64,000 nt of DNA, taken from NCBI GenBank assembly GCA_017991315.1, contig JAGOQS010000003.1, forward strand, positions 310,001 through 374,000, given 5' to 3'. This DNA is from Ferrovibrio sp. (GTDB lineage Bacteria; Pseudomonadota; Alphaproteobacteria; Ferrovibrionales; Ferrovibrionaceae). Below are positions 40,686 through 43,760 of the stretch, piece after piece. A model generated the notes under the pieces. It was not told the DNA's origin and did not search any database. It saw only the letters and a list, made by a program, of their open reading frames with translations. Within the stretch, counting starts at the first letter, position 1. Every line of letters starts with the position of its first letter. The position numbers and the translations under genes were made by a program.

Positions 40686-41201
40686 TCAGCGCGCTGCCGT
40701 CAATCCCTCGAACACCGTGAGGGAGAGGATATGGCTGACCGTGGTACCATCATCGGCCATCGGCGTATGGCAGAGTTCGATGGTGGCGAAGTTAGCTCGG
40801 TATTCCAGGCGCGGCGGGCCGTAGCGGTAGAGCGCCAATCCCTCGCGCACCACGTCCTCGCGGTCGGCAATCGGGTATTGCAGGCTCGGCATGTCGGTGG
40901 CCTGGGCTTCGTCCATGTAGCGGTTCGCCAGCCTGAGCCCGAGCGCGCTGTTGGTCTGTTCGCCGATCACCGTCAGCTTGAAGCGCGGCTTGCCGGTTGC
41001 ATATTCAACCCGGGTCAACACCAGATGCGGCAGTAGATCGGCGACCGCCAGGGGATTCAGCGCGGCGCGCGGGGGCAGCCTTTCCTGCGGATGCAGCGCG
41101 ATCGCAACATCTAGAAAACGCTGCATCAGCGTGTGGCGGGCGGTGCCGCGCAGCTCGTTCAGGCGCTGCAGGTTCGGATGCATGGAAGGCAGTCTAGCCA
41201 A
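40686..41201 (-). CDS. PAS-domain protein (PAS_5 type)
   Basis: A 171-residue single-domain protein. PLAVADLLPHLVLTRVEYATGKPRFKLTVIGEQTNSALGLRLANRYMDE near residues 48-96 is typical of the alphaproteobacterial PAS_5 family, and ELCHTPMADDGTTVSHILSLTVFE forms the last strands. No output domain is attached. Ligand and partner are unknown. Confidence 0.8.
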   Translation of the reverse strand: MARLPSMHPNLQRLNELRGTARHTLMQRFLDVAIALHPQERLPPRAALNPLAVADLLPHLVLTRVEYATGKPRFKLTVIGEQTNSALGLRLANRYMDEAQATDMPSLQYPIADREDVVREGLALYRYGPPRLEYRANFATIELCHTPMADDGTTVSHILSLTVFEGLTAAR

Positions 41202-41321
41202 GTTTCAAAAGCCGCGCTTTCTAACAAAATTGTGTTCCTGCCGATATGCCTCCCCGGATTATTCTGTTCCTTCCCATAGGCTGTGCGGCCTATTGTGCTG
41301 CTGCAATCTGAGGAGGTTCCG

Positions 41322-42155
41322 ATGCGGCGCGCCCTGGCGCTTTTCAGCATAGTAGCTGCCAGTCTGCTGCTGCGGCCCGAAGCCGCGCATGCCGCCGACC
41401 TGCCGATCTTCGATGCCCATTTGCATTACAGCCATGATGCCTGGGATGTGGTGCCGCCAGAGCAAGCGGTGAAGATCCTGCGCGATGCCGGCCTGCGCCG
41501 CGCCATGGTGTCGTCGTCGAATGACGAAGGCACCCAGAAACTGCATCGTCTGGCGCCCGATATCGTCATCCCGGTGCTGCGGCCCTATCGCAAGCGCAGC
41601 GACATCTCGACCTGGGTGCGCGACGACACCGTGATCGAGTATCTGGAAAGCCGGCTGAAGCAATACCGCTATGTCGCCATCGGCGAATTCCATGTCTATG
41701 GCGCCGATGCCGATCTGCCGGTGGTGCGCCGCATGGTGCAACTGGCCAAGCAGCACGGCCTGTTCCTGCATCTGCATGGCGATGCCGAAGCGGTGGACCG
41801 CGTGTTCAAACAATGGCCGGAGGCGCGCATCCTGTGGGCGCATTCCGGCTTCGACCGTCCGGAAGCGGTGGCTTTGATGCTGGAAAAGCACAAGGCGCTG
41901 TGGGCCGATCTGGCTTTCCGCAACGATCAGGCCTCCAACAACAAGGTGTCCGAAGCCTGGCGTCCGGTATTCCTGAAACACGCCGACCGCTTCCTGGTCG
42001 GCACCGACACCTTCACGCCGGAACGCTGGTACTACGTCACCGAGCACGCCAAGTATTCGCGCGGCTGGCTCGCCGATCTGCCGCAAGATGTGGCCGAGAA
42101 AATCGCCTACCGCAATGGCGATGCGATTTTCGCCAAGCTCTACGCTGGCCAATGA
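41322..42155 (+). CDS. Exported amidohydrolase-family protein
   Basis: A 277-residue protein with a Sec signal peptide (RRALALFSIVAASLLLRPEAAHA) and a TIM-barrel metallohydrolase domain. IFDAHLHYSHDAWD gives the HxH metal motif near residue 35; LFLHLHGDAEA and ILWAHSGFD supply further His ligands, and FLVGTDTF the Asp. The substrate is unknown. AGGAGG lies 9 nt before the start. It overlaps the next gene (ATGA), and that gene overlaps the dihaem protein gene, so the three form one operon. Confidence 0.85.
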   Translation: MRRALALFSIVAASLLLRPEAAHAADLPIFDAHLHYSHDAWDVVPPEQAVKILRDAGLRRAMVSSSNDEGTQKLHRLAPDIVIPVLRPYRKRSDISTWVRDDTVIEYLESRLKQYRYVAIGEFHVYGADADLPVVRRMVQLAKQHGLFLHLHGDAEAVDRVFKQWPEARILWAHSGFDRPEAVALMLEKHKALWADLAFRNDQASNNKVSEAWRPVFLKHADRFLVGTDTFTPERWYYVTEHAKYSRGWLADLPQDVAEKIAYRNGDAIFAKLYAGQ

Positions 42156-42535
42156 AGCCGCTGCTGCTTGGCCTGCTGCTGCTGTTGCCCGGCAGCGCCT
42201 GGGCCTGCCTGCCGGGTTTCGAAACCGCCAGCAAGACAACGCGCGACGGCGTGACGGTGGCGTGGAAAAGCGAGCCGGCGAAGATTGTCACCGGCGCGCC
42301 TTTCGCGCTTGAACTGGCGGTCTGCCCGGCAGCACCACGCCTCAGCGTCGATGCCCATATGCCGGCACATCGCCATGGCATGAATTACCAGCCCAGCATC
42401 CGCGCCAGCGGCGAGGGCCGTTTCCGCGCCGAAGGTTTGGTGCTGCATATGCCGGGCGCCTGGGAATTCGTCTTCGAGGTGACGAACCCTGCCGGCAAGC
42501 TGACGCGGCTCACCGCGAATTATCAGGCGCCATGA
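42152..42535 (+). CDS. Periplasmic YtkA/FixH-like small protein
   Basis: A 127-residue protein with a signal peptide (KPLLLGLLLLLPGSAWA) and an immunoglobulin-like beta domain. MPAHRHGMNY near residue 69 and LVLHMPGAWEFVFEV near residue 95 are the YtkA/FixH-type signature and contain His and Met residues that could bind copper. Two Cys lie near residues 19 and 52. It is coupled by overlap to both flanking genes. Confidence 0.72.
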   Translation: MKPLLLGLLLLLPGSAWACLPGFETASKTTRDGVTVAWKSEPAKIVTGAPFALELAVCPAAPRLSVDAHMPAHRHGMNYQPSIRASGEGRFRAEGLVLHMPGAWEFVFEVTNPAGKLTRLTANYQAP

Positions 42536-43674
42536 TCCGGCTGCTGGCGGTTTTGCTGCTGCTGACGCTGCCGGCGGGCGCTATCGCCGCTGAGTTCACG
42601 CCGGAGGAACGCGCCGCTTTGCTGCGCCATGGCCCTTGGCCGTTGCCGCTGGAGCGCGACGACAGCAACCGGCTATCCGGCAATCAGGCCGCCATCGCAT
42701 TCGGTCAGGCACTGTTCTTCGATCCGCGCCTCTCGGCCAAGGGCGACATGAGCTGCGCCACCTGCCATCAGCCGGCGCGGCGCTATAGCGACAATGAGAA
42801 GGGGCGCGGCGAATTCCTGCGCAATGTGCCGAGCTTGCTCGATATCCGCTGGAACCGCTGGTTCGGCTGGGATGGTGCGCAGGATAACCTGTGGTCCCAG
42901 AGTTTGCGGCCGATGCTCTCGGCGGCCGAGATGGCGGCAACGCCGAAGCTGATCGCTGATCACATCCGCAGCGATGCGGATTTACGCTGCCGCTACCGGG
43001 CCGCTACAGGCGCGGTGCCCGAGGCCGATGACGATGCGGTGGCGGTGATGGCATCGAAGGCGCTTGCTGCGTTTCAGGAAACGCTGATAAGCGGCCCGGC
43101 GCCGTTCGATGCCTTCAGCGATGATCTTGCCGCCAATCGCACGCCAAACCTGAGCGAAGCCGCGCAGCAAGGCGCCAAACTGTTCGTCGGCAAGGGGCAA
43201 TGCGCCATCTGCCATATCGGGCCCGGCTTCACCAACCGCGAATTCCACGATATCGGCGTGCCATACATGGCGCGGCCTGGCCTGGTCGATCCCGGCCGCC
43301 ATCTCGGCCTGCGGCGTTTAAGCGAGAGCAAGCTCACCAGGCTGGGGCCGTTCAGCGACGACCCGGCGCGCGAGTCCGTGACCACACGGCATGTCACGCT
43401 GCTGCACCGGAACTGGGGCGAATTCCGCGTGCCGAGTTTGCGCAACCTCGTCGGCACCGCGCCCTACATGCATAACGGCAGCCGCGCCACGTTACGCGAC
43501 GTAGTGCGGCATTACTCCGAGCTGAACGAGGAACGGCTGCATGCCGATGGCGAGCGACTGCTCAAGCCACTGTTCCTCGGCAACGACGAGATCGATGCGT
43601 TAGTGGCTTTCCTGGAGGCTTTAAGCGGACCTTCACCCGCCGAGCCAGCGCCGCTGGGTGTGTGTACTCAATAA
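42532..43674 (+). CDS. Dihaem cytochrome c peroxidase/MauG-family protein
   Basis: A 380-residue exported protein with signal peptide (IRLLAVLLLLTLPAGAIAA) and two c-type haem sites, CATCHQ (about 76) and CAICHI (about 223). LFFDPRLSAKGDMSCATCH and FRVPSLRNLVGTAPYMHNGSRATLRDVVRHYSEL are family signatures. CcpA members reduce hydrogen peroxide; MauG and MbnH members oxidise protein residues. Which applies here cannot be told by eye. It overlaps the YtkA-like gene by 4 bp. Confidence 0.9.
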   Translation: MIRLLAVLLLLTLPAGAIAAEFTPEERAALLRHGPWPLPLERDDSNRLSGNQAAIAFGQALFFDPRLSAKGDMSCATCHQPARRYSDNEKGRGEFLRNVPSLLDIRWNRWFGWDGAQDNLWSQSLRPMLSAAEMAATPKLIADHIRSDADLRCRYRAATGAVPEADDDAVAVMASKALAAFQETLISGPAPFDAFSDDLAANRTPNLSEAAQQGAKLFVGKGQCAICHIGPGFTNREFHDIGVPYMARPGLVDPGRHLGLRRLSESKLTRLGPFSDDPARESVTTRHVTLLHRNWGEFRVPSLRNLVGTAPYMHNGSRATLRDVVRHYSELNEERLHADGERLLKPLFLGNDEIDALVAFLEALSGPSPAEPAPLGVCTQ

Positions 43675-43694: not shown

Positions 43695-43760
43695 GACCCT
43701 CGGGTCAAGCCCGAGGGTGACGTGGTTATGGTCGTCATGCCCGCGGAGGCGGGCATCCCA
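43695..43760. repeat. Two palindromic repeats between convergent genes
   Basis: Copies at 43695-43722 (GACCCTCGGG, TCAAG, CCCGAGGGTGACG) and 43733-43760 (CGTCATGCCCGC, GGAG, GCGGGCATCCCA). They lie between the dihaem gene (+) and the sugar permease gene (-) and may terminate both. Confidence 0.83.

Follow-up and report, generated by a model that had tools for sequence, protein, structure and literature searches.

What an exported hydrolase, a small YtkA-like protein and a dihaem enzyme could do together is the question raised by three genes, here called A (amidohydrolase-fold), Y (YtkA-like) and D (dihaem), which stand in this order at 41322-43674 on the forward strand of a 64,000-nucleotide stretch of Ferrovibrio sp. 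DNA (the window). The first-pass annotation, made from the letters alone, described three exported genes with a 4-bp overlap at both junctions, and the coordinates proved exact, with ATGA at 42152 and 42532. Judged by eye, the N-termini of A (MRRALALFSIVAASLLLRPEAAHA, followed by Ala), Y (MKPLLLGLLLLLPGSAWA, followed by Cys) and D (MIRLLAVLLLLTLPAGAIA, followed by Ala) are Sec-type signals. The cassette is a separate unit, since its 5′ neighbour is a divergent gene (40686-41201, reverse strand) and its 3′ neighbour is a convergent sugar-type ABC transporter starting from 43774 on the reverse strand. The features are as follows.

41310 to 41315, forward strand: ribosome-binding site GAGGAG of gene A, read from the sequence
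41322 to 42155, forward strand: gene A, exported metallohydrolase of amidohydrolase/TatD fold, 277 aa, assigned from sequence, conserved ligands, model and fold matches
42152 to 42155, forward strand: A/Y overlap ATGA, 4 bp, from the sequence
42152 to 42535, forward strand: gene Y, exported YtkA/CrdA-like beta-sandwich protein, 127 aa, likely a copper carrier judged from sequence and model
42359 to 42388, forward strand: putative metal loop of Y, M70-P-A-H73-R-H75-G-M77-N-Y79, from conservation among 42 homologues
42446 to 42463, forward strand: second loop of Y, H99-M100-P-G-A-W104, from conservation among 42 homologues
42532 to 42535, forward strand: Y/D overlap ATGA, 4 bp, from the sequence
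42532 to 43674, forward strand: gene D, exported dihaem enzyme of MauG/MbnH type, 380 aa, assigned from profiles, ligand column and tree
42754 to 42768, forward strand: haem motif 1 of D, CATCH, residues 75-79 (C75-H79), in 41/41 homologues
43201 to 43215, forward strand: haem motif 2 of D, CAICH, residues 224-228 (C224-H228), in 41/41 homologues
43513 to 43515, forward strand: Tyr328 of D, counterpart of the MauG haem ligand Tyr294, Tyr in 40/40 rows reaching the column
43696 to 43718, forward strand: 10-bp hairpin 22 bases 3′ of D, terminator-like, without a strong T run (z -2.7)
43737 to 43756: second hairpin or palindrome 3′ of D, CCCGCGGAGGCGGG, of a kind known from intergenic repeats and present as a single copy within the window

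Linkage of the three genes was investigated in 385 alphaproteobacterial genomes, with thresholds of E<=1e-120 for D and E<=1e-115 for strong matches to A. D was found in 28 of the 385, Y adjoins it in every one, and A is present as well in 26, always in unchanged order. Inversely, the A profile matched 46 of the 385 genomes, and 26 of the 28 strong matches have Y and D directly 3′ on the same strand. With the best ten candidates per genome, the Y profile matched 29 genomes, namely the 28 bearing D and one more (G066) whose Y is devoid of the metal ligands described below. No D was without Y among the alphaproteobacteria sampled, where the pair is obligate. The A-Y-D order, whose absence from other genomes had been named by the first-pass annotation as grounds for giving up a shared task, is kept in 26 of the 28 D-bearing genomes, far beyond chance. 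Further afield, an initial search with Y gave ten loci, six with the order A-Y-D in Alpha- and Betaproteobacteria and four with Y-D without A, Planctomycetota among them. A-Y-D is inherited as a unit across distant bacteria, and Y-D pairs without A were found in Planctomycetota, Gemmatimonadota and other Proteobacteria. Two plasmids have Y-D; an amidohydrolase query against plasmids gave no close match. In one genome (G187, L052:8130-9314) A and Y are fused in one open reading frame and the signal peptide of Y is absent, as expected of a true fusion exported via the signal of A. The shared task proposed for the three genes is thus borne out by the obligate Y-D linkage, by the A-Y fusion and by the co-loss described below. 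Pairwise identities of A, Y and D correlated moderately (Spearman 0.42-0.58), which gives weak support for strict co-evolution.

The cassette as first described holds in that it is a linked unit of preserved order; its core is, however, the Y-D pair, to which A is loosely attached, occurring alone in some genomes and missing beside Y-D in many. Among the cassette flanks no conserved fourth gene was found, and distant genomes share no flanking genes. Nor was there a general third gene for the A-less Y-D pairs, only single cases beside a caa3 oxidase or a galactose-oxidase-like protein and two beside a DUF3703 protein (L093:9031-9375 and L095:7625-7984).

The label amidohydrolase proved apt for the family of A, a relative of which passes Amidohydro_2 (PF04909) at 52.7 bits, while A of the window reaches only 22.3 bits against TatD (PF01026; cut-off 27). 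The predicted model (pLDDT 91.2) is an amidohydrolase-type TIM barrel which best matches 3cjp (Z 21.4, rmsd 2.6 over 216 residues), followed by TatD and related hydrolases. The residues D31, H33, H35, E122, H152, H174 and D229 are invariant in 36/36 homologues, and H124 and H150 are present in 35/36, so that sequence and model together suggest the metal-binding TIM barrel with HxH, H, H and D that defines the amidohydrolase superfamily. A resembles Amidohydro_2 and TatD proteins in fold and metal-ligand pattern and differs from them in being exported, in scoring below the TatD cut-off and in being seated with Y-D. Orphan homologues without Y-D have the same metal ligands and Trp residues and varied neighbours, and differ from cassette-type A at H38, D39, R92, D154, F177 and P233. 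In two genomes without a close D (G211 and G107) a cassette-like A stands alone, and in the tree of A the linked, A-only and orphan proteins form three weakly supported groups. On these three grounds A is a separable module; A-only genomes and orphans with varied neighbours rule it out as a member of an obligate triad.

Y was first called YtkA-like, a name which four other members of its family carry at 38.7-55 bits against PF13115 (cut-off 25.9) and which Y of the window, at 16.9 bits, inherits from them. Its predicted model (pLDDT 89.9) is a beta sandwich that best matches the silver-containing structure 9ll4 of Helicobacter pylori CrdA (Z 13.3, rmsd 1.8 over 95 residues), followed outside CrdA by a match of Z 9.5, and CrdA is also the top match of the Y sequence profile (E 7e-5). 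CrdA is a copper-resistance protein, for which Met69, 72, 75, 78 and 99 have been proposed as the copper site (PMC9182242). Met69, 72, 75 and 99 align with M70, H73, M77 and M100 of Y, and CrdA has a Trp aligned with W104. The CrdA fold of the model thus speaks for the copper-type site that had been suggested on Y. M70, H73, H75, M100, G102 and W104 are invariant in all 42 D-linked Y homologues. The 28 A-linked ones further fix C19, C58, N78, Y79 and H99, whereas N78 occurs in 1/14 and Y79 in 0/14 of those not linked to A. The nearest known relatives, CrdA and the Bacillus YtkA protein CtaK, are like Y in fold, in the Met positions of the copper site and in the conserved Trp; CrdA has Met where Y has His, and for neither does the accessible text describe a dihaem partner of the kind that Y has in D (PMC9182242, PMC13344008). 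In two A-less alphaproteobacteria (G208 and G359; L142 and L143) Y has long His/Met-rich N-terminal tails.

D has two CxxCH motifs and matches CCP_MauG (PF03150) at 118.6 bits. It stays under the cut-offs of both the MauG equivalog (TIGR03791, 168.1 bits against 443.85) and MbnH (TIGR04039, 134.6 bits against 362.85), the latter being passed by a control MbnH from Methylocystis at 485.5 bits; RoxA-like matches were also among the family-search results. In MauG, W93, P107, E113, Y294 and W199 have assigned roles, Y294 as haem ligand and W199 as the hopping residue. The first four have kept counterparts in D (W113, P127, E133 and Y328), and the counterpart of W199 is mostly K, R or E in the homologues. 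D is accordingly like MauG in haem motifs and in these four positions, and unlike it in scoring under the family cut-off, in the replaced W199 and in having no mau genes near the cassette. In the Y328 column D, MauG and MbnH have Tyr where the cytochrome c peroxidase of Providencia has Met. Two CxxCH haems and the distal Tyr place D in the MauG type in the broad sense, as kin of MauG and MbnH and apart from CcpA, although the first-pass annotation had joined the names MauG and CcpA; a simple CcpA is ruled out by Tyr in place of Met at the ligand column of the high-potential haem. Judged by this ligand, D belongs with the enzymes that oxidise residues rather than with the peroxidases. In a maximum-likelihood tree, whose references sit on long branches and whose A-less rows were picked via their Y, all Y-linked D stand apart from MauG, MbnH and CCP at 98/94; the A-linked D group together at 99/99 and the A-less D at 95/91. 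The tree is consistent with an old Y-D pair and a single attachment of A. In three genomes of one family a further dihaem gene, more remotely related, lies 2-4 kb from the cassette (L057:13022-14200, L058:12340-13527, L059:4245-5381) and groups apart from cassette D.

The strongest evidence in the analysis comes from g68, a single genus of 42 genomes that serves as a natural experiment; the cassette position there is fixed between a citrate-synthase/PhyH/2OG-oxygenase side and a RuvX/Na-H-exchanger side. In all 30 genomes with A and D, Y retains M70, H73, H75, M77 and M100. In ten further genomes A and D were not found, the Y open reading frame is kept at the collinear locus, and none has the full five-residue set. 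Eight of these ten Y are without the five residues as a set (chance may bring back single ones, such as a His, where the loop was realigned), G704 retains M70 and M77, and G736 retains M70 and M100; G704 is 73% complete with both flanks on the contig, and G736 is 60% complete with the D side off the contig. Tyr79 is gone from all ten, and W104 and C58 are kept in all ten. In G720, A and Y are intact, with the Y ligands kept, beside a D remnant that has an internal deletion and an in-frame stop, which documents that D can go first; G713 (77% complete) has no Y match. Placed on a flanking-protein tree, the losses map to G066, G699, G700 and G708 together, to G702 (sister to G720), to G698, G724 and G732 together, to G704 and to G736; they count as three to five independent events, according to how the tree is rooted and whether a regain is permitted. 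The ligands of Y depend as a set on the presence of A and D, being kept only where partner genes remain, as also in G720 with its broken D and intact A. Because A and D were lost jointly, the loss of ligands is not assignable to D alone.

Ligand-less Y persists in g68 as a conserved exported protein (L106, L175-L181, L183 and L184). Its dN/dS was 0.06-0.07 among G066, G699 and G700, where dS is near saturation, and 0.22 for G724/G732; such low values indicate that the remaining ligand-less Y is not decaying freely and is under purifying selection. Its retention points to a further, apparently metal-free role of Y that the model proposed below leaves unexplained.

These observations bear on which residue, if any, D may alter. 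MbnH makes kynurenine on MbnP, and in the MbnP/MbnH pair (TIGR04052/TIGR04039), as in Y-D, a small exported copper protein lies by a MauG-like dihaem enzyme with a Tyr ligand. With this common layout, with the MauG/MbnH tyrosine in D and with W104 in 42/42 D-linked Y, four residues past the ligand M100, D might be thought to convert Trp104 to kynurenine or a related product and so complete the copper site. This is very doubtful, since W104 is kept in ten Y without D and A, a Trp is also present in CrdA, and Y is not homologous to MbnP. As an MbnP homologue Y had to be rejected: it gave no NCBIfam match and an hhalign probability of 0.4%, the control MbnP scoring 264.4 against the TIGR04052 cut-off of 140, and it is about a third of MbnP in length and unrelated in sequence. 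The MbnP/MbnH pair is conserved beyond methanobactin producers (PMC3621798), and at the locus examined it had no linked amidohydrolase, unlike A-Y-D. Trp104 is weakened as a likely target of D and, being kept without D and present in CrdA, is probably structural. Within A-linked Y, the better candidate target is Tyr79, which all 28 of these have and none of the 14 others, and which has disappeared from the ten Y without A and D.

The reading that D acts as a peroxidase with Cu(I)-loaded Y as electron donor, in copper-coupled peroxide defence or a Cu(I)-oxidising detoxification with A incidental, would account for the obligate pairing and for the way in which the metal ligands of Y depend on the partner genes, and it is favoured by the role of CrdA in copper resistance (PMC9182242). 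We consider it unlikely, since Tyr ligation of the MauG type belongs to poor peroxidases, as MauG itself has been termed (PMC6405878), and since A is kept in 26/28 and was lost with D in g68, so that it is not incidental in this clade.

A small-molecule pathway, in which an aromatic compound or lipid is oxygenated by D and then hydrolysed by A, with Y in charge of metal or product, is suggested by the RoxA-like matches of D and by the fold of A, which structural matches place with decarboxylases and lactone hydrolases. Some dihaem enzymes of the CCP/MauG family reportedly act on small molecules, as in a study of fatty-acid diol synthase. Such a pathway is nevertheless very improbable, because Y-D is kept without A across phyla, the ligands of Y track A and D, and the cassette flanks have no conserved transporter or catabolic neighbour.

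In one locus (L009:318-9381), the sole case found within a cytochrome oxidase operon, Y-D lies inside a caa3-type operon of the order COX2/cytochrome c, COX1, COX3, COX4-like/cytochrome c, CtaG, Y, D, SCO1/SenC, SURF1, thus between CtaG and SCO1/SURF1. CtaG and SCO1 are copper-insertion factors. In another (L100:2-7708), a 2569-aa protein with malectin, Kelch, galactose-oxidase-like E-set and CCP_MauG domains is encoded directly 5′ of Y-D. The mtoX operon of methanethiol oxidase has enzyme, SCO1/senC chaperone and mauG, and chaperone/MauG fusions are known (PMC5739008); its order of enzyme, copper chaperone and MauG is that of A-Y-D, although the enzyme and chaperone families differ, the cassette having an amidohydrolase fold and a YtkA/CrdA fold. 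These contexts are single or analogous cases that carry no statistics. Together with the A-Y fusion and with CtaK, a YtkA protein implicated in CuA assembly in B. subtilis (PMC13344008), they allow a reading as cofactor assembly on a client enzyme, where Y brings copper and D oxidises the client, A here and cytochrome oxidase or the galactose-oxidase-like protein elsewhere. This reading is rather unlikely, as A homologues without Y-D have the same metal ligands and Trp residues, A stands alone in the A-only genomes, and most A-less Y-D pairs lack an evident adjacent copper enzyme.

The simplest reading, most likely on the sequence evidence, has D acting on the copper site of Y or by way of it; this draws on the Y ligands tracking the partner genes, on D never occurring without Y and on a haem ligand of the residue-oxidising type. 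Residue maturation, oxidation of Cu(I) and use of Cu(I)-Y as electron donor may all be compatible with the sequences. In the model that we favour, Y is most likely a small exported carrier holding copper via M70, H73, H75 and M100, with M77 and perhaps H99 joining the ligands in A-linked Y. D, as a dihaem enzyme of MauG type in which Tyr and His ligate one haem, would most likely use peroxide to oxidise the copper site of Y, either Cu(I) itself or an adjacent residue such as Tyr79. By analogy with MbnP/MbnH and CorA/CorB, the oxidised site would let Y deliver copper or hold it in working form. A is most likely an exported metal-dependent hydrolase that joined the pair in one Alpha/Betaproteobacterial line as its client or effector. 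The analysis itself establishes linkage, gene order, predicted folds, conservation of the ligands and the reliance of the Y ligand set on A and D; from these we infer copper as the metal, peroxide as the oxidant, the direction from D to Y and the role of A. The model as a whole, with copper carrier, oxidising enzyme and client or effector, has our moderate confidence. A bolder form, that D turns a residue in the copper loop of Y (candidate Tyr79) by oxidation into a new protein-derived copper cofactor that is passed to or used with the periplasmic amidohydrolase, is decidedly speculative and on balance improbable; if true, it would be a copper-linked hydrolase system undescribed before.

The pairing of a small copper protein with a MauG-like enzyme is already known. 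In the open literature, most subscription papers being outside the search, there was no paper on the cassette or on FixH/YtkA proteins beside dihaem enzymes, and to that extent a partner of YtkA/CrdA type, linkage to an exported amidohydrolase and a dependence at the level of residues are undescribed. The MauG family is large and its known protein substrates are few, and Y-D is a widespread pair with a new partner family, a precise partner-dependent residue set and naturally D-less relatives as controls. With it one can test directly whether MauG-like enzymes have a general class of substrates or partners in small copper proteins, and it connects MauG-like chemistry with a hydrolase as well as, in one lineage, with the assembly of cytochrome oxidase.
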